Shown: piece by piece, positions 7,219 to 60,984 of the stretch
How positions within the stretch are numbered: position 1 is the first letter of the stretch
Layout of the letters: each line of letters opens with the position of its first letter
Assembly (NCBI GenBank): GCA_963281255.1
Contig: OY725499.1
Location: forward strand, 2,809,148 to 2,873,147
Origin: Aphrocallistes beatrix
Taxonomy: Eukaryota; Porifera; Hexactinellida; Sceptrulophora; Aphrocallistidae
Direction of reading: 5' to 3'
DNA: 64,000 nt
The notes under the pieces: model-generated
Told to the model about the DNA's origin: nothing
Databases searched by the model: none
Seen by the model: only the letters and a program-made list of their open reading frames with translations
Program-made: the position numbers and the translations under genes

Positions 7219-10200
7219 ATGGCACAGAGGGAAAGGGATAGTACGAATTTCCGCGTAATGCGTCTTATTGGCAAGGTAATCACATGGATCTACCGGTTAG
7301 GCTACGTAATCCGCTTCTTCCACTCGCTCTACTACCTCCTGCGGAATCAGCTGAGGAGGCTGAGGGGAGTGGAGGTGTTGGAGAGGGTGCGGTGGAGTGA
7401 GGAGGAGGTTCTGAATTGCTCCGCCGTCCGTCTGGCGAGAATGATACGGAGTCGTGAAGTGACGTCAGAGCGAGTCGTGCAGACCTGCATCTCTCGGATC
7501 CAGCAGGTCGACCCTGTGATTAACGCCGTGGTAGCCGACAACTTCCACCACGCGGTCAGGAGAGCTAGAGAGGTGTGTTGTTAGTATAATTCATTTGATC
7601 CTGTGTATCGTACTACATCGAGCCATCTTGCACTAGCTTGGACCTTGTCACCCGGCAACTTACCGCACGTCCCCTAGGCTATATCTCGATTTTCATTCTG
7701 GTTTAAGATTGCTATTTCTTTTCACTTTTTCTAGCTAGAAACCTAGATTATTGCTATAAATCCCATTTTTTTGTTAAGATTTAAACTACTTAAGTGCCCT
7801 GTTTGAACACACTCGGAAGGATTAATCTAAGTAACTCAGATCAGTATACGATCATAACAGTCAGGCAATTAAGTTTGATCTAAAAGTATACAAACCCTCC
7901 CAACTCCAGTGTTTTAGCAGTAAACTCAGAGAAGGGACTGGATAGTGAAATGAATTATTTGTTTAAACAGAGATGACAGTGTGTGTGTGTGTAGATTGAC
8001 TCTCTACTGGACGGAGACAAAGATTCGCTCCCTCCAGATCTGTCTCCGGAAGCAGCGCCGTTCCTGGGAGTCCCGTTCTCTGTCAAGATGAGTATCTTCG
8101 TCACCGGGATGCTGAACGACGTGGGGGTCTGCTACCGGAGAGGGAGGGTGTCCAAGCGAGATGCGGCTGTCGTTGCCAAGCTCAGAGAGGCCGGAGCCAT
8201 CCCCCTCGTGGTTACTAACACCTCTGAGTTCTGTCTCTTCTGGGACAGCTGCAACAAGATACACGGAACTACCAAGTAAGTTCACTGACTCAGCATTTAC
8301 TATACAACCTCAATCAATCATACCATCATCAAATTACAGGGGCATTCAATAAATACTAATCACGAAATATATTTCAATGAAAGAGTTACAAACCCAGTCA
8401 ACTCAATGCAATTATATACAACCATATTTTAACTCTATAACAAAACTTAGAGGGAGTTGATTACTCCATTATTTCTCGAGTTTCAGTGATTTTAGATATC
8501 TACATTTTGGACTATCATATTTTGCATGGCTTCTTGTCCTAATTACTCTGAAATTGAGCAACGGACGTATGTCAAATTTCGCACTATCCTCGAAATCCCT
8601 CCAAAGTCTATTTATGAGGAGCTGGCAATGATATGTGGAGAAGATTCTCTATCATATTCAACTGTCAGAAGATGGGTAAACCTGTTCAGGGAAGGCAGGG
8701 CCTCTGTCCAAGACGCCCCTCGTCCTGGAGCACCAAAACTGGCGACCAACAGTGACAAATTGAATGAGGTAAAGGAATACGTCGACTCTTTCCCCCATTC
8801 TTCGGTTGAGGACGTAGCTAACAATGTTGGCATTTCAACGGGAAGTGCACACACGATTCTGAAGTCGGAGTTGGAACTGAGGAAGGTCCAAGTGCGATGG
8901 GTACCGCATTGCCTGACTTCTCCACAAAAGGCCGCTAGACTCGAAATGGCCAAGGAAAACCTCACAATCTATGAATGGTGTGACCCAAGACGTTTATTAG
9001 AGATAGTAACAGGGGATGAAACTTGGATACAATTCAAGCCACCGATCAGAAAACAAGATGGCAGGGTATGGCTGAAAAAAGGAGAGGTACCCCCAGCTGT
9101 TTGTGTGTCCGACTTTCGTGCCCCGAAGGTCTTATACTGCATATTTTTCGATGGGCTAGGGCCTGTAGCCCAGATCCCTGTTCCCAAAGGCCAAACACTT
9201 ACTGGACAATTCTACGCTGATGTTGTGTTACCTGAAGTTGAGAAATCGTACCTTAAGCGTCGTCCAAAGACTGGAACACGTGGTCTCAAAATTTTGCATG
9301 ATAATGCCAGACCACATAAAACTTTGGCTGTCAAGCAAAAAATTAAAGATATGGGTATGCACGAAGTCCTGCACCCACCTTACTCCCCTGATATAGCCCC
9401 ATGTGACTTCTGGCTGTTCAGAAAACTCAAAGATCACCTCTCTGGACGCGAATTTGAAGATCGGCTCAGCCTTGGTCGGGCAATTTTCCAATACCTCGAA
9501 GTCATACCCAAGGATGAGTATAGGATGACGTTTGAAAATTGGATTAAAAGGCTAAATTCTGTTGTAAAGTATAAAGGAGATTACTTTGAACATTCTTAGT
9601 AAAAATCATCCAATTTACACAATTATTTTTTGTTTTGGTGGGGTGTGATTAGTATTTATTGAATGCCCCTGTAAGTGTGATGAGATCTATAATTATAACA
9701 TGTCAGTTTCCTATGTTTCCCGATTAACCGGAGTTTCCAACTACAGTCCACTCCCGAAAACCGGGGCACCTCGGGACCAGAGCTGGGCGCCCCGGTTTTC
9801 GAGTGATTAGATGTACTGTATCAAGTTAGCATAGCTCGTGACAAAAACAAAGCATTTTAAGAGAAATAATCTTGGGTCCGTGTAAACTAGCATCCTCAAT
9901 CATTATGCTATAGTAAGACCACTCCAAAAAGTGACATTGCTCTCACATACCCGCCGAACCTGTTGTTTCGCCCTTACATAGTACATACATATGTACATAC
10001 TACACAGTCAGTCTGTCTCATTGGTATTACCATAGCCTACTGTATATAAGGCCTCACAGTAACTTGCGGATTTGGGACTAGGGATGCGGAGGAAGACCGT
10101 TGAACTAATACATGAGCTGCCTTAAATCATTTACAAAGCACAATAGAGCTTAGGAATGTATTATCAGCATATATAAATATGGTATCAAAGTACCCATATC

Positions 10201-16174: not shown

Positions 16175-16637
16175 AATCATTAGTTTCAATCTGAAATTAC
16201 TGCACAAATGGAAATAATACTCTCCAAATGCTCACTCTCACTATCCTATCAATTCTATTCCGCTTTAGAACAAATTCATGTTTCCCAACAGTTTGTAATT
16301 CCATTCTAAAATATCAGCGACGAAACTTCCGTTTACCGTGGTGCAGGGGGAGCAGCTCTCGCTTAGTAATTTTAAACTAATTTTCGAAGAGATAGCACGT
16401 TTATCATTTTTCTTGACGGATTGGTACACTATCATTTTAATTATTGTAAATTCTCTCTATTTTTCTTTCGCAATATTACGTAGAAGCGGCGATCGCATTT
16501 GCAACAACATTTATAGATATTTTCATGACCTACCAACATTTTGGCGTAAAATACTATTTTACAGGCACTCCCCACTTTAATTTGAGTAAATTTTAAAATC
16601 ATTAGTTTCAATCTGAAATTACTGCACAAATGGAAAT
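16175..16637. repeat. 381-base insertion bracketed by 41 bp direct repeats at a start codon
   Basis: The 41 bases ending at ATGGAAAT occur at 16175-16215 and again at 16597-16637, with 381 unrelated bases between. The sister gene at 21611 has only one copy, so it shows the state before insertion. The second repeat carries the working ATG (16630); the first is a decoy upstream ATG that runs into unrelated sequence. Confidence 0.85.
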
Positions 16638-17508
16638 TACAGACTCGCACCATCACCTCTGGACCGCAGAGACTCACTCACATTTTCTCGCAGCTAAAGA
16701 CGGAGTTGGTCCATTAAACCCCATCCTTACCTACATGCTCCCAGATCTGTTGGCCGATATCGAGCCTTTTAATGTCAAGAAGACTGTCCACGTGCAGGCA
16801 CTCAAGGATGGCTATCCACCAGATGAATCTAAATGGTTGCAAGACATAGCTGACAGCAATCCTGGAGGTTTTCCTCACGGAATTGTTGGGTTTTGTGACC
16901 TGTCCTCACCCGACACACCTAAGATACTCGCGGATCACATGAAATATAAAAATATGAGAGGGATACGTCAGCTTCTTACTTTCCACCCCGATAATAAACT
17001 GTTCTCCTTTGCTGCTCATGACAACTTCTTGACAGATCCGACCTGGCAGCAAGGTTTCTCTCTGCTGGCTACACACAACCTATCCTTCGACGTTCACGCG
17101 ATTCCGCATCAGTATGCGCGGGTGTACGAAGTGATCAAATCACGCCCGGAAATCCCCGTCGTTGTGAACCATTGCGGCGTTATGTTTGAGAGAGACGAGG
17201 CTACCATGAAACTGTGGCGTGAGGGACTTGCAAAGCTATCATCTTGTCCAAATTGTTTCATGAAATTGTCCGGTTTGCAGATAGCAAACAAGGACTGGGA
17301 TAATGTGTTTGTGAAGAAAACTGTGCAAGAAATCGTGGCGCTATTCGGATCCGATCGATGTATGTTTGGATCCAACTTTCCTATGGATAAAATTAACGCC
17401 AGTTATAAGCAGGTCTTGGAAGCAATGGAGTTTGCTACAGCTGAGTATACAGCGGCAGAGAGACAGAATATATTTTCTAATAATGCGAACAAATTCTATC
17501 GGCTATAA
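16630..17508 (+). CDS. Amidohydrolase-2 family hydrolase, copy A
   Basis: 292 residues, single exon. TIM-barrel metal hydrolase of the amidohydrolase-2 group (COG3618; includes L-fuconolactonase and 2-pyrone-4,6-dicarboxylate lactonase). Visible active-site elements: D-S-H-H-H (His7/His9) after strand 1, His156 in FDVHAIPH, His181 in VVNHCG and Asp253 in GSNFPMD. Length is typical. Substrate unknown; a lactone is the likeliest class. It differs from the copy at 21611 by about a dozen residues and a three-residue deletion near residue 26 (VG versus GHPVG), the rest being identical. Upstream there is a 381-base insertion that duplicated the start-codon region, which may change its promoter. A foldback MITE lies 19 bases after the stop and is absent from the other copy. 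Confidence 0.88.
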   Translation: MEITDSHHHLWTAETHSHFLAAKDGVGPLNPILTYMLPDLLADIEPFNVKKTVHVQALKDGYPPDESKWLQDIADSNPGGFPHGIVGFCDLSSPDTPKILADHMKYKNMRGIRQLLTFHPDNKLFSFAAHDNFLTDPTWQQGFSLLATHNLSFDVHAIPHQYARVYEVIKSRPEIPVVVNHCGVMFERDEATMKLWREGLAKLSSCPNCFMKLSGLQIANKDWDNVFVKKTVQEIVALFGSDRCMFGSNFPMDKINASYKQVLEAMEFATAEYTAAERQNIFSNNANKFYRL

Positions 17509-21610: not shown

Positions 21611-22498
21611 ATGGAAATTACAGACTCGCACCATCACCTCTGGACCGCAGAGACTCACTCATGGCTTATCGCAGCTAAAGACGGAGGGCATCCAGTTGGT
21701 CCATTAAACCCCATCCTTACCTACATGCTCCCAGATCTGTTGGCCGATATCGAGCCTTTTAATGTCAAGAAGACTGTCCACGTGCAGGCACTCAAGGATG
21801 GCTATCCACCAGATGAATCTAAATGGTTGCAAGACATAGCTGACAGCAATCCTGGAGGTTTTCCTCACGGAATTGTTGGGTTTTGTGACCTGTCCTCACC
21901 CGACACACCTAAGATACTCGCGGATCACATGAAATATAAAAATATGAGAGGGATACGTCAGCTTCTTAATTTCCACCCCGCTAATAAAATGTTCTCCTTG
22001 GCTCCTCATGACAACTTCTTGACAGATCCGACCTGGCAGCAAGGTTTCTCTCTGCTGGCTACACACAACCTATCCTTCGACGTTCATGCGATTCCGCATC
22101 AGTATGCGCGGGTGTACGAAGTGATCAAATCACACCCGGAAATCCCCGTCGTTGTGAACCATTGCGGCGTTATGCTTGAGAGAGACGAGGCTACCATGAA
22201 ACTGTGGCGTGAGGGACTTGCAAAGCTATCTTCTTGTCCAAATTGTTTCATGAAATTGTCCGGTTTGCAGATGGTAAACAAGGACTGGGATAATGTGTTT
22301 GTGAAGAAAACTGTGCAAGAAATCGTGGCGCTATTCGGATCCGATCGATGTATGTTTGGATCCAACTTTCCAATGGATAAAATTAACGCCAGTTATAAGC
22401 AGGTCTTGGAAGCGATGGAGTTTGCTACAGCTGAGTATACAGCGGCAGAGAGACAGAATATATTTTCTAATAATGCGAACAAATTCTACCGGCTATAA
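21611..22498 (+). CDS. Amidohydrolase-2 family hydrolase, copy B
   Basis: 295 residues, single exon, near-identical to the copy at 16630. The HxH motif (His7, His9), NHCG histidine and GSNFPMD aspartate are all intact. It keeps GGHPVG near residues 25-30 where copy A is three residues shorter. Other differences are LNFHPANKMFSLAPH versus LTFHPDNKLFSFAAH, SHPE versus SRPE, MLERD versus MFERD and QMVNK versus QIANK. The 5' region resembles the ancestral state (no 381-base insert), but a Helitron has landed 158 bases upstream of the ATG. Function as for copy A: a TIM-barrel metal-dependent hydrolase, likely a lactonase, substrate unknown. Confidence 0.88.
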   Translation: MEITDSHHHLWTAETHSWLIAAKDGGHPVGPLNPILTYMLPDLLADIEPFNVKKTVHVQALKDGYPPDESKWLQDIADSNPGGFPHGIVGFCDLSSPDTPKILADHMKYKNMRGIRQLLNFHPANKMFSLAPHDNFLTDPTWQQGFSLLATHNLSFDVHAIPHQYARVYEVIKSHPEIPVVVNHCGVMLERDEATMKLWREGLAKLSSCPNCFMKLSGLQMVNKDWDNVFVKKTVQEIVALFGSDRCMFGSNFPMDKINASYKQVLEAMEFATAEYTAAERQNIFSNNANKFYRL

Positions 22499-37566: not shown

Positions 37567-38874
37567 ATGAATCTGGATACTTTATCCTATATGCATGCTA
37601 TTAGGAGCGCGGCTAAACGCGTCCAAACTGCTGACATTGGAGGGGGCTGGATTCTGATTGGCTATGTGCAAGGAGATGAAGGAGCGAAAAAGCTAAATCT
37701 AATGACAATAAATGTGATTAAAGAAGGTAGCATCTGGAAGGATCTGGTGACTTCGTTTGAAGATGACCAAATCATGTATGGATATGCTAAACTGAATTTT
37801 GAAGCTTGTGGAGATGGCAAAATATTTCTAATCCATTGGGTAGGGAGTAATGTAGGGGAAAATGAAAAGTCTAGTTGCATGCCTCATCTGAATGAAGTAA
37901 GGAATCTTCTCCCCAGCTATGACCACATAATCAACTCGATGAATCCACTCGATATACAGAGCAAGGTGCACAACTACCTCACGATAGCAATGCCGATTGA
38001 AGTGGATAATCCGCTATTGAGTCGTTCTAGCAGAATCACATCTCTCAAAATGCGACCGAGTGGGCGATCTAGCAGTGTGGATTGGCAGGAAATGGCTTTC
38101 GGCCCCTTTAATAGGACAAGAACATTTGGCGATAAACTCCTGCTGGATTCTTCACTTGAAAGGAGAGATTCGCATAAAATCGATTCTACAGACATCAACA
38201 CTATGACTGCTAACATATATCGAATTAAACTTCCCAAATTCAAAGTGGCGATTCTTGGGGATGCGGCAGTTGGGAAAACCAGCATTTACCAGAGCTACAA
38301 GGACGGTGGGAACGCTCTGACGTCACCGACCAATATAACCACTTACGCAGACTGTATGCGTAAGAAGGTGGCTGTGGAGCAGCACGTGTTCAACCTAGAG
38401 ATATGGGACACAGCGGGTATGGAGAGATACATGGCGTTTGCTTCTACCTGGACCAGAAACGCTAAAGTAGTAGTAACTGTGTATGACATCACGGATATAG
38501 ACACTTTTAAAAATGTGTCCAGATGGCTCGCTTTAGCTCAGCAGTTCGCAGATCCTAGAGCAATCTACGTGCTAGTAGGAAACAAGGCCGATCTAGTCGG
38601 GCGTAGAGTGGTAACGGAAGCTGCTGCTGAGAAGTTTGCATCTGAACAGGGAATGATATTCATTGAATGCTCCGGTCTCACCGGTTATAACATTCTTAAC
38701 CTGTTCGAACATATCTCTAGAATGGTCATTATAATCTATCCAGAACTTCTAGAGACAAACATCACAAGAGAACATTCAAATAGTACAATACATCTCCCTG
38801 TTGGAACGGATACTAGTTCTCAGCTGTCAACCAAACTACAGAAGAGACACGGATGTAACCAATGTAGTAAATAA
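37567..38874 (+). CDS. ADF-H (coactosin-type) / Rab-like GTPase fusion protein 1
   Basis: 435 residues, single exon. Residues about 1-138 form an ADF-H domain of the coactosin/drebrin/Abp1 type: WILIGYVQG; FEDDQIMYGYAKL; KIFLIHWVGSNVGENE, the actin-binding face of coactosin (compare KFALITWIGENV); then the helix QSKVHNYL. A Ser/Arg-rich linker (139-222) follows. Residues 224-392 are a Rab/Ras-fold GTPase: P-loop GDAAVGKT (231-238), G3 WDTAGMERY (280-288), G4 NKAD (339-342), G5 ECSG (367-370). Met285 replaces the catalytic Gln of switch II, predicting slow GTP hydrolysis. The C-terminus CNQCSK has cysteines but not a textbook Rab prenyl motif. The predicted role is coupling a membrane GTPase switch to F-actin; this is inference. 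A second gene with the same architecture lies at 48315, so the fusion is not an assembly error. Confidence 0.9.
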   Translation: MNLDTLSYMHAIRSAAKRVQTADIGGGWILIGYVQGDEGAKKLNLMTINVIKEGSIWKDLVTSFEDDQIMYGYAKLNFEACGDGKIFLIHWVGSNVGENEKSSCMPHLNEVRNLLPSYDHIINSMNPLDIQSKVHNYLTIAMPIEVDNPLLSRSSRITSLKMRPSGRSSSVDWQEMAFGPFNRTRTFGDKLLLDSSLERRDSHKIDSTDINTMTANIYRIKLPKFKVAILGDAAVGKTSIYQSYKDGGNALTSPTNITTYADCMRKKVAVEQHVFNLEIWDTAGMERYMAFASTWTRNAKVVVTVYDITDIDTFKNVSRWLALAQQFADPRAIYVLVGNKADLVGRRVVTEAAAEKFASEQGMIFIECSGLTGYNILNLFEHISRMVIIIYPELLETNITREHSNSTIHLPVGTDTSSQLSTKLQKRHGCNQCSK

Positions 38875-42505: not shown

Positions 42506-45500
42506 TTAGTTAAAGTAACTCATTCTTGCAGCATTGCGCAACTGTGCTTCATTTCTCGGATCGAGGTGAGAGAGAAGAAGGCTCAGATAGCTATTCTCCC
42601 TCCCGAGCATCAAGAATGGAACATCTATCTCGATAATCCTGCCTCTCTCTAGCACTACAATTCTGTCTGAATCTATAATCGTCTCAATGCGATGTGCAAT
42701 TGTGAGTACTGAACAATCTGAAAAGTGACTCCGAATAGCCTGCTGGACTAATGCGTCAGTTTGCAAGTCAACATTAGCAGTCGCTTCGTCTATCAGAATT
42801 ATTTTGTTCTTTCTGAGAATTGCTCGAGCTAAGCATAAGAGTTGACGCTCCCCTGCAGAGAAGTTATGTCCATCTTCCGCCACACTCGTCATCAGCTGAT
42901 CAGGCAGAGATTGAACCATATTGCATAGATGGGACTTTGTGAGAGCATCCCAAATCTCTTCTGAGCCAAACTCTTCAAATGGATCCAAGTTATAGCGGAG
43001 TGTCCCAGTGAAGAGAAAGGGGTCCTGTGGGATGATGGACAGTCTCTTGCGATGCTGGAACAGGTTCAGACTTGAGATATCTTCGTTATCAACCATAATG
43101 CGACCAGCAGATATTCCATTGAGGAGGAAGAGCGAACTGAAGAGAGAAGATTTCCCTGCCCCTGTTCTCCCGATGATCCCTACCTTCTCTCCTGGTCGGA
43201 TGTCAAGAGAAACGTCGATGAGTGAGTATGGGAGATCTTTCGAATATTTGAAGCAGACTCGGTTAAATTGGATTCTTCCATTAGTTCCTTTAAGAAGTGA
43301 AACAGAGTTCTGTTTGCATTCGTGTCTCTTTTGAGAATTCTCTTGTTTCAGTTTGCAGTACTTCAATATTCGATCTACAGACACCATCAAGATGTCTACG
43401 TCTCCGCTAGTTCTCACCACGGTTTGTAACTGTATAGGCAAAGATAGGATTAAAGGTATTGAAAATTCGATGAGATCATTGCTCCCAAGGAAGTTTTTTG
43501 CGATAATTGCCGAGAATATTCCAAATATTACTACGAATACACTCAGAAAATCGATTCGGATTCCAAACCACCGGCTACAAGCTAAATAATGATACCATGC
43601 ACGTGAGTGTTCGTCTAGAAAGTAATGGAAATCTTTTGTGAGTCTTGATTCCAAAGAGAGAGAGCGTATCGTGGTGAGGCCTTGTAGGGTGAGGGAGATG
43701 TGGGAGTAGAGAGGACTACGAGCAATGCTTTCCAAACGTTTCACTTGTGAACAAGTTTTGAGGTACCAATATCTAAACCCTAACGTGCACAGTACTAACA
43801 CACTGAAAGGTAGCAATAAGTAATACTGAACTAAACTGCTAGCTATCACAATGCCAATGCAATAAGTTGAATATTGCCAGAAGTCGTAGAATAACATGGG
43901 AAGTTGCTCATCCAGAAAACCGAAATCTTTGGAGAACCTGTTAAGGATGCGACCACTGGGGTTAGTATCAAAGAAATGGATCGGAGTGTATAAAACTGTC
44001 CTTAACATTCTTTGATGGAGTCTCCTGCTAGCTTGAAGCACAATGTAATAGAAATTGAACCCGCGAAGAAACATGAAAGCAAAACCTGAAAAAGTGAATA
44101 ATGCTACCAATTTCAGAGATCCGGAGTTGTGAATGTTGTAATACCAAGGACATTGTGTAAGCGTTGAGTTTGTCATATTATTTCCATCAAGTGTGAGATT
44201 CCTGTTTTGGAAACATCGTGTGGTAGACTGTATCCACCAGTAAGAGAGGATAATCCCTCCGTTGCTCAAGATAGTCAGCAGCAACATGGAAATTGTTGGT
44301 AAGAATCCACCAGCCCAAAAGTATCTGATATACGTGATCAGAGTAAAGGATGTTGTTGCGTGTTCTTCCTCACTGAGTGAGGTGGTCAACGGCTGTTGTT
44401 CATTCATGTTTTCATTGGATAAATATGTGATATCTTCGGAGGTTTGGTTTCCGTATTCTTGATCCATTGGATTATTATGTTTATTATTCGGACATTTTCC
44501 AAAAGTAACTTCAGTATCAACATATTCTGTTTCATCATTTATTTCTAAAGTCTGAAGGAATCCTTTACAGAAGCCATTTTGCATCACATGTTGATAACTA
44601 CCACTCGATTCCAATCTTCCTTCATTCAACACGAGAACTTGATCAGCTTTCATTGCGTATTGTATCTGATGAGTTACAACTAAGACGAGTTTTTCTTTGA
44701 GGAATTCTTTGATGCATTTTTGGAATATTTTCTGGCCCACCTTCACGTCTACAGCACTGAGAGGATCATCAAAGAGATAAATATCAGCTTGATGGTATAC
44801 TTACCTAGCTAAGGCCACCCTGGCCTTCTGACCGCCACTCAACGTAATTCCTCTCTCACCGATCAATGTCTCGTCTCTCTTGTCAAAAGAGGAAAGATCT
44901 TCTCTTAAACAACAGGCCTCGATAACCTGACTGTAGCGAGCCGATAGGAATGGATTCCCGATCAGTATGTTGTCTCTGATGGTACCAGAGAATATCCATG
45001 GTTCTTGCGCAGCATAAGATAGAACTCCTCTCGTTGAGATGTCTCCTGAGATGCCTGGAAGTTCTCTGATCAGACTCAGGAGGAGACTCGACTTTCCTGA
45101 TCCGATTGGGCCTGTAATGACTGCTAACTGAGGTTGAAACAAGTTGAAGCTGATTGATTTTAGAACTTTACTTCTGGATTCACTTTCGCCTGTTCCATCC
45201 CAAAATGCTGTGAAATTTTTAAGTTGAATCGTATTATTTCCCTTCCGGCTGATGCATGACTTCAGCAATTTTTGGTTATCTCCAACTGGAAATTCTAAAA
45301 TTCTTTGAATTCTTTTCAGTGCAATCACGCTCTCCCTCATGCTAAAAATCGATTGACCCATAAACAATATCATATAAGTTCTGAGGACATGGAAAAGTAG
45401 AAAAGCTGCACTAAGTTGTGATGTATTTAATGGATCACCAATCTGATAACTAACGACATAGATTAAGAACAGTCCTATGAACAGGCTGGTGCTGAAGAAT

Positions 45501-46434
45501 GTAAAGTAACTACTCTGTGCGATTCCTGACATGCTGGCGTATGCTATTTCTTTTCTTCGAATCTTACTGATGTACTTAACAAACGGAATCTCCCAAGCAT
45601 AGAATTTGATCACTCGCATTCCTCTGATGATCTGGTCCATTAGTCGGATGCGTATATCAGCTGTTTTTGATTGATGGAATCTCAAATATCCAAATATGTA
45701 ACCGAGAAAGACCTGTAGCGGTGTATGTAAGATAATGTATCCAACTCCTATCAGTCCGATGGGTCCGATATAAATGAGGACCACAAACAAGCAGACTACT
45801 GCTATAATCGGCGAAATCCAGAACCAATCCCAGACATAAAGTCCAAAGTCTAATTTGAATACATCATTGGAAACGAGATTAATAATATGGCCTATAGAGG
45901 TTTTATGAAGTAAAGTTTGTTGCATTTTAAGAGTTTTCTTGAAAATGGCAGTGGTACAGATTGCTCTCATTTGCAATCCTATGCAAAGTGCTATATAACT
46001 GCTGTTGCTATTGACACCATATTCAGGGAAATGAACGTTGCAATACATACAGGTTGAACAAAGGTGTGATTAGTTTGTATGTTGAAAAAATTTTCAGAAT
46101 CGAGTGCTGAAAAGTAAAAAACGAGAATCGCTTGAATTATTAATAATAGTCCTACCGCAATGCGACAAGTACTACTGACACATAAGAAAAGTTTGCAAGT
46201 TTTCGCTAGTGCAATCTTGATGTCAGGATTTCGTTTCTTTTCGACTTCATATTTCCAGTATTTGTCAAATGTATCATACAACTTCTGGGAACATTGTTCA
46301 TTTGGACATGGAAAAAGATCACTTTGTTTCAGTTTGCTTCTAAATCCTTTGAAAAAGAAGGTTTCTAGCCATGTGAAAAATAGTTGAGAGAAAAGGTTTC
46401 CTCTGTAATCTTTTTTCTTTAGATTGAAATGCAT
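42506..46434 (-). pseudogene. ABCC4: ABCC (MRP4-like) ABC transporter with one frameshift and one in-frame stop
   Basis: Two half-transporters in the order TMD1-NBD1-TMD2-NBD2 with no TMD0, as in MRP4-type exporters of organic anions and cyclic nucleotides at the plasma membrane. The N-terminus (46434) reads NLFSQLFFTWLETFFFKG, the usual ABCC opening. NBD1 has Walker A GPIGSGKSS and signature ITLSGGQKARVALAR; Walker B IYLFDDPLSAVD follows. NBD2 has Walker A GRTGAGKSS, a degenerate signature FSAGERQLLCLARA, IILIDEATANVD and H-loop IAHR. Lesion 1: the frame shifts by one base near 45990-46020, inside the second TM helix. Lesion 2: a TAA at 44801-44803 replaces the Ala expected in ALARAVYHQAD, just before Walker B. 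Otherwise about 1300 residues are intact, so loss is recent, or one or both lesions are assembly errors. The TAA lies in a perfect GTAAGT donor (see findings). Confidence 0.85.
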
Positions 46435-48314: not shown

Positions 48315-49592
48315 ATGAATGTAGATACTCTCTCTTATATGCGTGATATAAAATCTGCTACAAACGAGGTCCTCGAGTCTAATAAGAACGGATGCTGGGC
48401 ATTGATAGGGTATGTTTATCAGAATGATAGTAAATCAAGCAAGCTGAGTTTGTTGCCAATCAATGTCATCAAACAAGGAGATGTCTGGATAGATTTACTC
48501 ATGGCATTAGAAGATGATCTAATCCTATACGCTTTAGCTAAAATGGAAGATTTGACGACGAATGGAATATATAAGACATTTTTTATTCATTGGATAGGCG
48601 AGAAAGTCGGTGAAAATGTTAAAACGGAGTACGCTCCCCATTTCCATGAAATAAGAAATATTATGCCTCAATTCGATTGTTTGATTTCTTCAATGGATGC
48701 ACAAGATATACAGAAAAAGGTTCATCAACATTTGTCCCAAACTCAAGAAGTAAATCTGAGTCTTACACACAGAAAAAAATCTAGGAGCAATTCGCTACCA
48801 AAACAAAACGCACCTCCAGCTCCAAGTCACGAACCAAAAGAAAGAGTTTCCAAACAGATATCCACAGCTGTTAGCTGTCTCTCACCGCTCTATGAAGATC
48901 ACGAACCGATAGGTCTAGGCAAGATAAGGTACACATCGCTAACTAAATATAAGGTTAGTGTGATTGGGGATGCTGGAGTTGGCAAGACTAGTATATACTG
49001 TTGTTTCAAAGGGGGAGGCACTGCCCTTGACCCTCCCCACTCAATACAACCTTCAACAAAAATCGATCAATTTCAACGCAACGTGGAAATAGGAGAGTGT
49101 GAGCTAACTCTAGACATTTGGGACACTGCGGGCCAAGAACGATACAAGTCGTTCGCATCCTGCTGGCTACGTAACGCCTATGCAGTTCTGCTAGTATACG
49201 ATATTACTGACGAATCTAGTTTCTTGTCTTTGACAGATTGGCTTGCATTAGGGAAGCAATACACTAAGCAAGAGGCAGTGTTCCTACTGGTAGGGAACAA
49301 AGCAGATTTAGAAACGCGGCGAGTTATTTCACAAGAGAGTGCAAATAAATTTGCCAATAAACACGGGTTAATTTTTACTGAATGCTCCGGTCTTACTGGG
49401 TATAATATATCCCACTTGTTCGATCTGGTAGCTAGAAGGATACTCATCGCGTATCCGGACAGGTCCAGGCACCTGGAACCCATTGAGACTTTGTCCATCC
49501 TTGATGAGAGCAACGTCATACAGCTATCCACAGAGAACACCCCCCTCCATACCCCTTCAAACCACTCCAAAAAGAAGTGTTGCATAAAATAA
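48315..49592 (+). CDS. ADF-H (coactosin-type) / Rab-like GTPase fusion protein 2
   Basis: 425 residues from the ATG at 48315. I prefer this to the ATG at 48246 because MNVDTLSYM aligns with the start MNLDTLSYM of the paralog at 37567. ADF-H domain residues about 1-140: CWALIGYVYQ, LEDDLILYALAKM, KTFFIHWIGEKVGENV. Linker 141-205 is Ser/Pro/Lys-rich. Rab-like GTPase 211-382: P-loop GDAGVGKT (218-225), G3 WDTAGQERY with the catalytic Gln kept, G4 NKAD (328-331), G5 ECSGLTGYN. The C-terminal KKKCCIK is a CCXX Rab-type double-geranylgeranylation signal preceded by a basic patch. This is therefore probably a membrane-targeted, hydrolysis-competent Rab tethered to an F-actin-binding module. Single exon. 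Same gene order and strand as fusion 1, about 9.4 kb apart, with METTL27 and the ABC gene between. Confidence 0.9.
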   Translation: MNVDTLSYMRDIKSATNEVLESNKNGCWALIGYVYQNDSKSSKLSLLPINVIKQGDVWIDLLMALEDDLILYALAKMEDLTTNGIYKTFFIHWIGEKVGENVKTEYAPHFHEIRNIMPQFDCLISSMDAQDIQKKVHQHLSQTQEVNLSLTHRKKSRSNSLPKQNAPPAPSHEPKERVSKQISTAVSCLSPLYEDHEPIGLGKIRYTSLTKYKVSVIGDAGVGKTSIYCCFKGGGTALDPPHSIQPSTKIDQFQRNVEIGECELTLDIWDTAGQERYKSFASCWLRNAYAVLLVYDITDESSFLSLTDWLALGKQYTKQEAVFLLVGNKADLETRRVISQESANKFANKHGLIFTECSGLTGYNISHLFDLVARRILIAYPDRSRHLEPIETLSILDESNVIQLSTENTPLHTPSNHSKKKCCIK

Positions 49593-51916: not shown

Positions 51917-52609
51917 ATGGCCATTAACTATGATATTTCTGACAGCATTAATGTTCCCATGAGAGAATTCACGGGGTCTCCAAGGAACATTCCTGATTAC
52001 AAGATTTGTCTCCTTGGAAACAGCAACGTAGGGAAGTCAATGCTTCTCAGGTGCCTGTGTGCAGGAGGGGGAGAGCTGTCGAATGAAAATCTCTCCTCCA
52101 CAATCGGGATGGAGTTAGTCAAGCACGTGGTTAAAGGACCTCATCGGTGTCGACTCCAACTTTGGGACACGGGAGGACACGAGAGGTTCAGGGCCATCAC
52201 TGGCAACTACTTACGCAATTCACACGTAGTTCTATTCGTGTTTGATATAACGAATGCTAAGAGTTATGAGGCAATACCTCGCTGGATGGAAATGGCGCAA
52301 GGAAACGTGGATCAAGATACGTTATTCATGCTAATCGGTAATAAATTGGATTTGTTCGAAAGAAGAGTTGTTTCGCAAGTCGACGCTAACAAATTCGCAT
52401 TAAGAAATCGCATGGAGTATTTTGAATGTTCTGCTCGTAAGGGATTTAACATCTTATTTCTATTCAATCAAATCGCGAAAGATCTCTCTTATCAATTTAA
52501 AGAAGAGACTAAAAAAAAGTTTATGAACAGTCTGGAATCTTCTTCTGTCGACCTCACTAATTCCTATCAAGAGGAAGACAAGACAAAGAGCTGCACCAGC
52601 TATTGCTAA
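51917..52609 (+). CDS. Rab-like small GTPase (switch II DTGGHE)
   Basis: 230 residues, single exon. P-loop GNSNVGKS (34-41), switch I Thr62 in STIGMEL, G3 LWDTGGHERF (82-91), G4 GNKLDL (141-146), G5 ECSARKG (170-176). Switch II has His in place of the catalytic Gln and Gly in place of the Ala of DTAGQE, so intrinsic GTP hydrolysis should be impaired. After the P-loop it carries CAGGGEL, the GG-insert signature shared by all four Rab-like genes here. C-terminus KSCTSYC has cysteines suitable for prenylation, though not a classic CXC. Closest in the window to the minus-strand gene at 57215 (shared VSQxDANxFA and LFLFNQIAKD). No ADF-H domain: only 26 residues precede the GTPase fold. Confidence 0.9.
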   Translation: MAINYDISDSINVPMREFTGSPRNIPDYKICLLGNSNVGKSMLLRCLCAGGGELSNENLSSTIGMELVKHVVKGPHRCRLQLWDTGGHERFRAITGNYLRNSHVVLFVFDITNAKSYEAIPRWMEMAQGNVDQDTLFMLIGNKLDLFERRVVSQVDANKFALRNRMEYFECSARKGFNILFLFNQIAKDLSYQFKEETKKKFMNSLESSSVDLTNSYQEEDKTKSCTSYC

Positions 52610-54683: not shown

Positions 54684-55752
54684 CTAACTTTTCACTACAT
54701 TCTGGATTCCCACAGAAGGAATTGACTCGTAATAGTTATCAATATTCAAGAGGTAGTGAGGAGTTGTCCCGTTCCATGTATCTTGCAGAGGCGACATGGA
54801 CACATATTCGTGTACCGGACTAAGAACACTACAAGTAGAAGTATCGTAGTCCCAAAAATTATAAGCTCTTTGAGGTGTTGTGCATGTGTTGTGCTTTGGA
54901 TATTCACACTGCGGACTCACAAATATGGGCAGCTGGGATGAGGGATGAGGGGGGGATCTAGGGCGTAGGTCAAACAAAGGCTTTAATTGTTTTTTATTCA
55001 GCTTTCCATTGCCATGCTCTATTGAGTTTAGTCTGTTTTCTTTCTCGAATGGTAGACAACTGTAACATGAAAACGACTCGTAAGAAGAAGTGCTATCCTC
55101 TTCTGATACAGAATCGTTTGAAAACACGGAATAAGTGGAAATAGAGTCACTACAGTCACTGTCGGTTTTGATGCTCTCTTCCCAACTATTCTGCTTATCC
55201 GACTCAAATGGCAACTTTTTGCGTCTAAAATGTAAATACAAAATTTAAAATTAGTGTGGTAAAGTCATAATCAAGATATATTATCCCAGATTTACCTTTT
55301 GGTTACATTTGCTTTTCGGCTTAGTGATTTATTTCCACGAGAGACTGGGAGTTTCTAAATATTAATTTTAATAAATATTACGATAAATCATTTATGATAA
55401 AGAATGCAGTTGGAAAGAAAACTTCTACTTACTTCAGAATTCTCCTTCAAGGTATCACAAGCTCTCTGAAAAGCAAGCTTAATTTCATTGTGCTCTGATT
55501 GTAGATCTTCATCCAAATGACCTGCGATCTTGTTGAGAAACTGCACCCCATCTAATGCGTAGTTATATAATCACTCAATTCGATATAATTCAATTATAAT
55601 TTTGACTGTTAGAGTAATTTAATTTAGAAATAGGTTCATTTGGAGTAATAATCCTGAGGTTACACTGTAAATAAACAAGAGGTTAATTCCTATTGCATTA
55701 TAAAATTACCTGTGAGCAGCGATATCATGTATGAGTTAGGTTCTTGACTCAT
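54684..55752 (-). CDS. Unrecognised four-exon protein (253 residues)
   Basis: Exons on the minus strand: 55752-55710 (start MSQEPNSYMISLL), 55551-55433, 55354-55296 and 55224-54684. All three introns (158, 78 and 71 bases) have GT-AG ends and the phases add up to one continuous frame of 253 codons plus stop, which is strong evidence for the model. The N-terminal third looks helical (DGVQFLNKIAGHLDEDL, then AFQRACDTLKE). A basic patch follows (NVTKRRKKLPF, a likely nuclear localisation signal), then a long Ser/Asp/Glu-rich and Pro/Tyr-rich tail typical of disordered regulatory regions. No enzyme motif or membrane segment. I do not recognise the family; a nuclear regulatory role is a guess from the NLS and acidic tail. 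Confidence 0.72.
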
Positions 55753-57214: not shown

Positions 57215-57874
57215 TCAAGAGCAACAATCTGGTTTCTTTGAAGGTTTAGTATCGTCGATTGGAGATTTAGTAGAAGAGATAGAAATAGCTGTTAGACAGT
57301 CATCAGGACGTGCTTGCTCTTGAAGAAGATCTGGATACGCAATCGCAATATCTTTAGCAATCTGATTAAATAAGAAGAGGACATTTCTGCCCCTAACCGC
57401 GGAGCATTCGAAAAATTCTAATTTGTGCTTCCTTGCAAACTGATTAGCGTCGATCTGACTCACCATTCTATTCTCATCCATATCCACCTTATTTCCTATC
57501 AGCATGCACAGACACTTCCAGTCTGCCTCAGTCTTCGCCTTCTCCAGCCATTTCGGGATGGATTCGAAGCTGCTGGAGTCTGTGATGTCGTATACCAGCA
57601 GTACTACCAGTGCGCTACGGAGGTATCCTGTACTCACTGATAGGAACCTCTCCTGTCCCACTGTATCCCAGATGTTGAGATGGCAGCGATGCTCTCCAGC
57701 TGTGATCTCGTGCTGTGTAATGTCCACTCCGGTGGTCGCAAGGGGGTACTGCTCACGAGGGACAAGGACACCTCCGTTAGAGAGGCTCTTTATGATCATA
57801 CTCTTCCCAACTCCAGAGTCTCCGATGACGCACACTTTGAACTTAGGAAGAGAGCAGCTATCCTTTGAATTCAT
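57215..57874 (-). CDS. Rab-like small GTPase (switch II DTVGQE)
   Basis: 219 residues from the ATG at 57874. An in-frame ATG at 57979 would add 35 residues (MSSMQILVLRACAG...) that have no counterpart in the paralog at 51917, so the shorter start is preferred. P-loop GDSGVGKS (18-25), G3 IWDTVGQERF with catalytic Gln kept but Val for Ala, G4 GNKVDM (127-132), G5 ECSAVRG (156-162), C-terminal DCCS, a CCX Rab prenylation motif. Carries the LSNGGVL insert shared with the other three Rab-like genes here. No ADF-H domain. Single exon, opposite orientation to the other three. Confidence 0.9.
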   Translation of the reverse strand: MNSKDSCSLPKFKVCVIGDSGVGKSMIIKSLSNGGVLVPREQYPLATTGVDITQHEITAGEHRCHLNIWDTVGQERFLSVSTGYLRSALVVLLVYDITDSSSFESIPKWLEKAKTEADWKCLCMLIGNKVDMDENRMVSQIDANQFARKHKLEFFECSAVRGRNVLFLFNQIAKDIAIAYPDLLQEQARPDDCLTAISISSTKSPIDDTKPSKKPDCCS

Positions 57875-57979
57875 TATCTGCCACTGATTGCAGCCCCTTT
57901 GATTTGCTAAATCTATCCTCAGATACACCACAGGTGAGCCTGCACAAGCTCTTAATACTAATATCTGCATGGATGACAC

Positions 57980-59769
57980 AGTGATTAAAGTAGTTGTATT
58001 AATTAAGCAATTAAAATACTACATGCTTATGATCATAGATAATTGAAGCAGACCAAAACTTATTTTCAGATCTTTCATGAAGGAGAATATTTGTGGCACC
58101 GTACCCTGAGCCCTTTGGAATGTGATATTTCATATATCTAAACTCTTGAAACCAGCCTAGATGAACCGGTGAATATCAAACGACTATTTGCAGACTAATT
58201 ATTAGTGACTTGCATTCCAAATTTAGTTTTATAAAGTGGTGCAATGTCTCATGTGTGTAATTCATTAACCAAATTGTTTTTAGAGCACTTTCCCCAATCC
58301 ACTACAAGTACTGTTAAGTGACGCATTTACAAATAACATGAGAGTCATGGAACTTCGAATTCTACTGTACTATGGTGCAAATTCAACTAAATCTAGCCAA
58401 ACATATATTATTATGTTTTTGACAAAAATGTGTTCAGTAACAGAAAGGATATTCTGATCTGTTGGAAAATAGAGGAGAATATTCCAATCCCAGTTCTTGG
58501 TAATCAGATGTTCTCTAAAATCAAACAGAGCTTGTTTCCAGTGGACTTCCTTCAGAGATACCATGTTGTAAAATTTTATCAGTTCATACTACAAATGCAA
58601 AGCTACGAACAATGCACTAATCGACCTGACCACAAAACCTCAGGTTCTGGAGTGAGACATATGATGGAAACGGAAAGAAAAGGAGAATATTATTTTGTAC
58701 TTATTTTACCTCGGGTGACCATATTTAACCGTTTTAGTCATTTGTGATGGTTAGATCTCACGAAATAAGATTGAATGATGATAAGCTTTATTGCTGATGC
58801 ACTCTTCCCACATAAAATTCTGATTTATTGTTCAACTCTCTTAGATGTGAAATAGATGAATCCTCACTTTTTTAGTTTTATGACCACCATGCCCAACTAA
58901 ATGTCGTTATTTTGTCAAATTGATGTTTAGTGTTAATGTTAGAAAATTCAATATGGTTCTTGCCAAGTTTGGAGATCGAAATGTTGTCACATTCCTACCG
59001 TCGCTAGGAAAATGCAAAAATATTTCTCTAGTTATGGTCAATCTACCCACCAAAAGACTGGATATTGAATGTGGAGTACGAGTGTAGCAATAAAAAGTTA
59101 ATTTGAAAGGATCTGAAAAGGACAACTTAAATTCACAAATCCGGCGACATCTGTCGGACGCCAAATTTTCTACTCAAAAAAAATTTAATTTATACAGAAA
59201 TGTAAGTGGGCCCAAAGCTAAAATCGATCAGTATGTCAACTATCAACGCGCCAAATCTATTGCTTCTACTCAAAAGCGCACAATTCTTTCATTTTTGCAC
59301 CTTATTGCTCTATTACTTAAGTATAACTGAGAATTTACATTTTGAGATCACCACAACAAACATTTATACCACTCAATTGAACTACGGATGTTCTCTTAAG
59401 TATCCAACCCGCAGATATAGGACAAAAAATACTATTAAAATGGATTGAATACATTATTCGCCTAGTGTAATTGCAACCTTGCAAGTGAGTAGGAATAATT
59501 GTACTTTTAGGATTAGAAATGCCATTCAAATTGTTAGATAATTCGAACAGTTTATTAGAGTTCAATTATATTTATTCCTAGGTTCCTTTAAGCGCGGAAG
59601 AATAAAATATTTTCTGCCACTACTCTGCAGGAATTATTCACTAATTACGAGTAAGCTGTATATTGTGTGGACTACGTACAGGCATATCTTTAATAACACA
59701 TATATCCCATGCATTCTAGTCTAAGAAACAAAAGCAAAGTTTAAAAACATGCACAAGAAAAGCCGGATT
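57980..59769. other. Intergenic, no gene seen
   Basis: AT-rich; open frames such as that at 58430-58747 have no bias or recognisable product. The 3' end of the actin gene lies at the right side. Confidence 0.5.
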
Positions 59770-60631
59770 TTAAAAGCATTTCCGGTTGACAAATGAGGGA
59801 CCTGCCTCATCATACTCTTCCTTTGAGATCCACATTTGCTGAAAAGAGCTCAGCGAGGCCAAAATGGACCCTCCAATCCAGACGGAGTACTTCCTTTCCG
59901 GGGGAGCGATCACCTTCACCTTGATGGCGGGTGGAGCAAGCGCAGTGATTTCCTTATGCACACGGTCAGCAATTCCTGGGTACATCGTGCTACCGCCGGA
60001 TAGCACAGTATTGGCATAGAGATCTCTCCGTATGTCAACGTCACACTTCATGATGGAGTTGTAGATGGTCTCATGGATGCCCGCGGCCTCCATGCCTATG
60101 AAAGAGGGCTGGAAGAGAACTTCGGGGCAGCGGAAGCGCTCGTTACCGATAGTCACCACCTGGCCATCTGGCAGCTCGTAGCTCTTCTCGATGCTAGCGC
60201 TGTGGGCGGCGGTCGACATTTCCTGATCGAAGTCGAGTGCGACGTAGGCAAGTTTCTCTTTGATGTCTCGGACGATTTCCCTCTCAGCTGTGGTGGTGAA
60301 GGAGTAGCCGCGCTCCGTCAGGATCTTGGACATGTAGTCAGTCAGGTCTCGCCCCGCTAGGTCCAGGCGCATGATTGCATGCGGGAGTGCGTAGCCCTCG
60401 TAGATAGGGACCGTGTGTGAAACCCCGTCTCCAGAGTCGAACACTATCCCCGTGGTCCTGCCGGAAGCGTAGAGAGACAGCACGGCTTGTATGGAAACGT
60501 ACATGGCTGGAACGTTGAATGTTTCGAACATTATCTGTGTCATCTTCTCGCGGTTGAACTTGGGATTGAGAGGAGCCTCAGTGAGCAGAACTGGGTGTTC
60601 TTCTGGGGCAACACGAAGCTCGTTATAGAAT

Positions 60632-60667
<36 letters not shown>

Positions 60668-60900
60668 GTCACGATGCCATGCTCAATCGGGTACTTGAGA
60701 GTGAGGATTCCGCGCTTACTCTGCGCTTCATCTCCGATGTATGCATCCTTCTCAGCCATCCCTACCATGACGCTATGATGACGGGCGCGGCCTACAATGC
60801 TAGGGAACACGGCTCGGGGCGCATCATCTCCTGCGAAACCCGCTTTGCACATTCCAGACCCATTGTCGACAACCAAAGCTGTTACGTCGCTATTTTCCAT
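59770..60900 (-). CDS. Actin
   Basis: 376 residues, single exon, full length. Nucleotide-binding signatures [20 protein letters not shown] (phosphate 1 loop), [19 protein letters not shown] (phosphate 2), adenosine motif [15 protein letters not shown], conserved [20 protein letters not shown] end. More diverged than typical cytoplasmic actins: [20 protein letters not shown] where most have [40 protein letters not shown] versus ALDFEQEM.TAASSSS.EKS, and FVNRKCF versus IVHRKCF. It could be a specialised rather than the main cytoplasmic isoform. Strong GC/codon bias suggests high expression. Upstream lie a TATA box and a CArG box at standard spacing. The encoded F-actin is the natural partner of the ADF-H domains of the fusions at 37.6 and 48.3 kb, though no functional link is shown. 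Confidence 0.98.
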
Positions 60901-60984
60901 TGCAAATTGTGATTTTTAGTTGGAAGGTTTTCTTTGAATGTTTGTAGAAGTGAATTGACTGGAGAAGATGGTAGAGACTTTGCA

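Follow-up and report, generated by a model that had tools for sequence, protein, structure and literature searches.

The window analyzed here is a 64,000-nucleotide stretch of contig OY725499.1 from Aphrocallistes beatrix. At positions 37567-38874 of its forward strand lies fusion gene I, which encodes an actin-depolymerizing-factor homology (ADF-H) region, a linker, a Rab-like GTPase domain and a basic tail with two cysteines. The gene consists of one open reading frame (ORF) running from ATG to stop without interruption (435 aa; the coordinates include the stop), and the chance of a 435-codon open frame at the window's base composition is ~9e-14. The initial annotation had proposed that an ADF-H module and a Rab are joined here in one protein. 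This is confirmed by the Pfam scan, in which the single ORF matched both families above their curated cut-offs, i.e., Cofilin_ADF (PF00241) at residues 47-128 (E 5.6e-7, 29.7 bits vs. a cut-off of 22.4) and Ras (PF00071) at residues 226-387 (E 5.6e-39), the latter corresponding to a complete Rab-like GTPase domain. The database entry of the protein itself (P0001) differs from the window by one residue.

The ADF-H region, assigned below to the drebrin/Abp1 type by profile comparison, spans 37567-37980 (+, residues 1-138) and is followed by a poorly conserved linker at 37981-38229 (+, residues 139-221). The GTPase domain occupies 38230-38736 (+, residues 222-390) and, as originally described, carries the motifs of the Ras fold, namely the P-loop GDAAVGKT (38257-38280, residues 231-238), the G3 motif DTAGME (38407-38424, residues 281-286), the G4 motif NKAD (38581-38592, residues 339-342) and the G5 motif ECSG (38665-38676, residues 367-370), all on the forward strand. 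The G3 motif has Met at the catalytic-Gln position, a detail absent from the original description. The two cysteines, C430 and C433 (38854-38865, +), are located after a basic stretch in the terminal CNQCSK and may serve as a lipid-anchor site.

Gene Cluster Around the Fusion

Fusion gene I is accompanied by three related genes. Fusion gene II (48315-49592, +) is a second ADF-H/Rab gene, whose product is close to P0034 (99.6% identity by tblastn) and ends in KKKCCIK. Lone Rab A (51917-52609, +) encodes 230 aa with no ADF-H, and lone Rab B (57215-58018, -) is given as a stop-to-stop frame with its start codon not fixed. The GTPase domains of these two lone Rabs are the closest sampled kin of the fused ones, and lone Rab B is also kin to lone Rab A. 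For lone Rab A, seven relatives with 60-61% identity were recorded, after which identity drops to 41% or less (among the best 120 of 182 matches). Together with an actin gene, the four genes are held within 23.3 kb. A standalone ADF-H gene that could have acted as donor was sought in the window, and the family profile matched the two fusions only in the six-frame translation at E ≤ 1.

A methyltransferase and an ABC transporter are situated between fusion genes I and II. The ABC transporter-like sequence (42506-46069, -) is distributed over two adjoining ORFs, which could represent separate exons or a disrupted frame; the Pfam scan covered 42509-44800. The actin gene (59770-60915, -; PF00022, E 7e-146) is found at the cluster edge, 1.75 kb from lone Rab B, and its position beside the ADF-H/Rab genes is possibly a coincidence. 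In A. vastus alone, 43 actin-like genes are reported (PMC10282587).

The ADF-H/Rab Protein Family

A protein search with fusion I returned 145 matches at E ≤ 0.001, the best 120 of which were listed. The first 47 (P0001-P0047, fusion I's own entry included) score at least 254 bits, with a BLASTP coverage of at least 80% of the query in 46 and of 44% in P0046, and the next match listed falls to 112 bits and 38% coverage. When scanned one by one, all 47 members matched both Cofilin_ADF and Ras at E ≤ 0.01, and the architecture thus recurs beyond this locus. PF00241 was absent from the precomputed domains of all 73 matches listed below the 254-bit break (120 of the 145 being listed). The ADF-H part of P0023 was also used as a query, in a search that sees only proteins of similar total length sharing short exact words, so that distant relatives could escape it. 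All 34 matches at E ≤ 1 were fusions, and one of them, P0241, was new; this protein is included in the trees and not in the family alignment (A1), and all counts out of 47 omit it. The ATG at 37567 is supported by the finding that MN[LIV]D occurs near the start in 42 of the 47 members.

Organism names were attached to four of the 47 proteins (P0008, P0009, P0010, and P0025), and all four belong to the glass sponge Oopsacas minuta, the genes of which fall inside both main fusion clades of the GTPase tree described below. No other named organism with this architecture was encountered among the matches listed or in the P0023 ADF-H search. The family is therefore probably restricted to glass sponges, as judged from these four named proteins of 47.

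The initial annotation had allowed for transcripts revealing two separate genes. Such a reading, in which two genes are joined by chance or through an erroneous gene model and no fusion protein exists, is contradicted by the stop-free genomic frame, by the 47 proteins of the same architecture, by the second copy in the window and by P0004, an EukProt transcript carrying ADF-H, linker and GTPase. What can be said for it is that P0004, the sole transcript, belongs to another gene than fusion I and looks chimeric. Its identity to P0002 is 90-95% over the ADF-H, drops to 60-75% in the linker and returns to 85-95% on entering the GTPase, and from approximately residue 340-360 onward it is a better match to P0044, reaching 100% over the last 32 residues. 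These identities suggest that P0004 combines two paralogues, with the switch inside the GTPase domain, as a result of either assembly or gene conversion. However, the join between ADF-H and GTPase lies upstream of this switch point, and ADF-H, linker and first GTPase part match one parent type. A two-gene artefact was accordingly rejected, and we consider it extremely improbable.

The segments of the family proteins differ in conservation. The mean share of the majority residue is 0.29 in the linker vs. 0.66 in the ADF-H and 0.69 in the GTPase. Linkers measure 11-89 residues (median 68; 83 in fusion I) and are enriched in Ser, Thr, Lys, and Arg relative to the whole proteins. At the other end, 44 of the 47 members have at least two Cys within the last eight residues. 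C-x-x-C is the commonest pattern (27 members), followed by CC (11) and CXC (6), with none of these in three. The usual Rab prenylation ending is CC, CXC or CCXX; fusion I ends in C-x-x-C-x-x and fusion II in CCIK.

Kinship and Catalytic Residues of the GTPase Domain

The best 60 of the 868 PDB matches of the full fusion I protein were all Rabs or yeast Ypt proteins, with Rab6B ranking first. The 48 fusions formed one clade (100/98) in a tree built from 78 GTPase domains, and the sister of this clade consisted of nine lone Rabs (98/91), i.e., eight lone A sequences and lone Rab B. These 57 sequences grouped together apart from the 21 other Rabs (100/99), an outgroup drawn from search matches and printed PDB alignments that is less than a full Rab panel and includes several long branches. 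No sampled outgroup Rab was placed inside the 57-sequence clade, and the sequence named RASEF (P0079) also fell outside it. P0053, P0133, P0158 (a fragment without the P-loop) and P0189 were left out of the tree.

Two sequence features accompany this grouping. The span from GK[ST] to WD[TS], which holds switch I, measures 40-46 residues in the fusions (43 in 40 of 48) and 41-43 in the lone Rabs, vs. 39-40 in all 21 other Rabs. In 47 of 48 fusions and 9/9 lone Rabs, this stretch between P-loop and G3 comprises at least 41 residues, and the one fusion with 40 residues equals two of the other Rabs. In addition, a GG pair just past the P-loop is present in 38/48 fusions and 9/9 lone Rabs vs. 0/21 other Rabs.

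The G1, G4, and G5 residues are kept in the family, the N, K and D of G4 being found in 47 of 47 members. The catalytic-Gln position (M285 in fusion I) is Gln in 41 of the 47 members, His in four and Met in two. Proteins with Met, His or Glu in place of this Gln comprise P0001, P0036, P0037, P0041, P0043, P0046, P0241 and eight lone Rab A proteins. Since they are scattered on the tree, the distribution suggests repeated loss of the catalytic Gln. Its absence is also known from some accepted GTPases, and the Met of fusion I bears on the activity of the protein more than on its kinship.

Subtype and Actin-Binding Residues of the ADF-H Domain

The initial annotation had classified the ADF-H region as coactosin-like on the basis of a hallmark block. 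The block, KIFLIHWVGSNVGEN, is indeed present at residues 85-99, but it resembles drebrin and coactosin alike, and the domain as a whole scores best with drebrin. When the N-terminal part of fusion I alone was compared with the PDB, drebrin (5.3e-8) and drebrin-like protein (1e-4) were matched. A profile built from 15 of the 47 family members (alignment A3) ranked drebrin first (2e-14), followed by drebrin-like protein (4.3e-10) and 1hqz (2.8e-6), which we take to be yeast Abp1, with coactosin-like protein (2.5e-4) and ADF/cofilin (9.3e-3) behind them. In this profile ranking the fusion ADF-H is thus drebrin/Abp1-like rather than coactosin-like, and the coactosin subtype was ruled out.

Classes of ADF-H proteins are described as differing in their binding to G-actin and F-actin (PMC5297645), and some act on Arp2/3 (PMC8727941). 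In line with this variety, the ADF-H of the fusions could act on monomers or, in the manner of GMF, on Arp2/3, so that the Rab would direct the assembly or disassembly of actin to a membrane instead of tethering the two. However, no chain named GMF or twinfilin was present among the 13 profile matches at E ≤ 1 in the PDB, the top three being drebrin, drebrin-like protein and 1hqz, and we regard this alternative as quite improbable.

The residues expected to contact actin present a mixed picture. Position 101, which in our reading of the alignment corresponds to an actin-binding Lys of cofilin, is basic in 45 of the 47 members (Lys in 44, Arg in one). Position 99, which we match with a second basic actin-binding residue of cofilin, is Asn in 42/47. 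Position 106 is Pro in 46/47, the aligned residue of drebrin being Ser, and by the same alignment it presumably falls within the ADF-H helix expected to bind actin. Position 107 is His in all 47, which together with the basic position 101 speaks for actin binding. Judged from the alignment, either P106 or Asn99 could weaken actin binding.

These substitutions leave room for a different role, in which the ADF-H has lost actin binding and serves the Rab as a regulatory or adaptor module, e.g., as a cover of the switch region or a partner-binding site. Such a role would fit the Pro in the expected actin-binding helix and the loss of one basic contact position; in addition, all ADF-H matches in the set searched (34/34) are joined to this Rab, which makes co-adaptation possible. 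On the other hand, the basic residue is retained at position 101 in nearly all members, the long switch I stretch is shared by the lone Rabs and thus gives no sign of co-adaptation, and drebrin, of a class described as F-actin-binding (PMC5297645), is clearly the best match of the profile. We consider such a regulatory or adaptor role rather unlikely, albeit a more serious contender than action on monomers or Arp2/3.

Order of Events

The fusions are divided in the GTPase tree into clade I (40 sequences, 99/96) and clade II (8 sequences, 100/95), and the window's copy is the earliest branch of type I, of type II and, less well supported (87/88), of lone A. The window therefore probably stems from an early-branching glass sponge. 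The ADF-H tree recovered clade II (100/100) and placed the root inside clade I. Holding type I as a clade in this tree costs 0.5 log-likelihood units (p-AU 0.46, not rejected). The order of events is based on the GTPase tree, because the outgroup branches of the ADF-H tree are long. As neither the lone Rabs nor the other sampled Rabs have an ADF-H, a single gain on the fusion stem is probably the simplest account.

Genomic linkage was also considered, matches with an equal printed contig size being taken as lying on the same contig and P0004, which has no contig, standing outside the table. On this basis, types I and II co-occur on 6 of 25 contigs and types I, II and lone A on 5 of 25; one of the latter, of 11,636 bases, holds five such genes. 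The remaining contigs are without one or more types, and many of them are short. The O. minuta genes LOD99_14825 (lone A) and LOD99_14827 (a fusion) have close numbers and are placed on a contig of equal printed size. In our best account, an ADF-H would have been gained once, before the sampled lineages split, by a divergent Rab belonging to a local cluster of genes; the fusion would then have duplicated in place, giving rise to the old types I and II, the former of which would have multiplied further on some contigs.

Proposed Function

Our best explanation, which we favor at slightly better than an even chance, is that of a glass-sponge Rab family with a drebrin/Abp1-type ADF-H, gained once and then duplicated, that acts as a membrane-actin tether. 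We infer as the most likely function of the protein that of a membrane-anchored Rab holding F-actin through its own N-terminal ADF-H. Lipid on the two C-terminal cysteines would anchor the Rab domain in the membrane, and the nucleotide state of the domain would set which membrane. The poorly conserved and probably flexible linker would give the ADF-H domain reach to actin. Drebrin/Abp1 proteins are described as binders of F-actin only (PMC5297645), and the fusion ADF-H would likewise bind F-actin laterally and leave it unsevered, tethering membranes to actin or vice versa. Because Met replaces the catalytic Gln, fusion I may hydrolyze GTP slowly and stay in the GTP state, which would result in a constant tether. 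F-actin binding, lipid anchoring, nucleotide switching and the effect of the Met are here predicted from sequence, and the direct coupling of a membrane switch to F-actin, already envisaged in the initial annotation, would follow from them.

Comparison With Known Proteins

The novelty claimed for the architecture stands to the extent that no description of an ADF-H/Rab protein was found in the open-licence literature. Conventional Rabs (Rab6, Rab5, Rab11, Rab30, and Rab26) have no ADF-H and a shorter P-loop-to-G3 stretch than the fusions. Coactosin-like protein shares a K-x-x-L-I-x-W-x-G-type block with the fusion ADF-H, although its match is weaker than that of drebrin, as given above, and it is a single-domain protein. 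The C-terminal part of drebrin and drebrin-like proteins is not known to be a GTPase. These proteins (Abp1, HIP-55) are similar to the fusions in having one N-terminal ADF-H and a non-conserved central region, while Abp1 differs in possessing an SH3 domain (PMC5297645).

The nearest known design is that of the large Rabs with EF-hand and coiled coil. Rab44, Rab45/RASEF and Rab46/CRACR2A-L likewise have their Rab domain at the C-terminus, preceded by an accessory region, and Rab46 has a stated isoprenylation site (PMC8303950). They differ from the fusions in carrying an EF-hand and a coiled coil within 70-150 kDa (PMC8303950), as opposed to an ADF-H within an estimated ~49 kDa. Among the six Pfam families matched by fusion I at E ≤ 10, no EF-hand was found. 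The ADF-H and Rab modules are familiar, and it is their combination and lineage-specific spread that are new. Rabs normally reach actin via separate effectors, e.g., myosins and their adaptors, and a Rab that itself carried an actin-binding module would provide a shorter route than this usual Rab-effector-actin logic.

The body of adult glass sponges consists for the most part of one multinucleate syncytium, with plugged junctions connecting it to cells, and signals have been proposed to travel by streaming through it (PMC5684314). Actin is also believed to contribute to the patterning of silica in these animals (PMC10282587). In the main text of the two glass-sponge genome papers (PMC10280926, PMC10282587), the terms Rab, GTPase, cofilin, ADF, drebrin, and GTP-binding do not occur. 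A link between the ADF-H/Rab proteins and the syncytium is suggestive only, yet the family offers concrete, testable genes for how a syncytium handles membranes and actin, and silica patterning is a further process to which a connection of membranes and actin may be relevant. It is tempting to speculate that glass sponges possess a private and expanding set of Rabs that would act as their own F-actin effectors by uniting switch, membrane anchor and actin binder, some of them locked in the GTP state, and would build or organize the giant syncytium, a distinguishing feature of these animals, or the actin-guided silica skeleton; we put this forward tentatively, at clearly less than an even chance. 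The lone Rabs surviving beside the fusions, in turn, provide a readable before-and-after picture of domain gain.

Other Features of the Window

Several further features of the window were recorded. A Ser-rich ORF of 186 aa (54684-55244, -) lies between the two lone Rabs and gave no Pfam match at E ≤ 0.001. The segment 50124-50789 is repetitive and open in several frames on both strands, and has the appearance of a tandem repeat rather than of a gene. A mariner/Mos1-type transposase-like ORF is located at 8523-9599 (+), with HTH_29 above its Pfam cut-off and HTH_48, DDE_3 and Transposase_1 below theirs. Finally, two very similar amidohydrolase (PF04909) ORFs at 16630-17508 and 21611-22498 (+), ~5 kb apart, apparently represent a recent local duplication.
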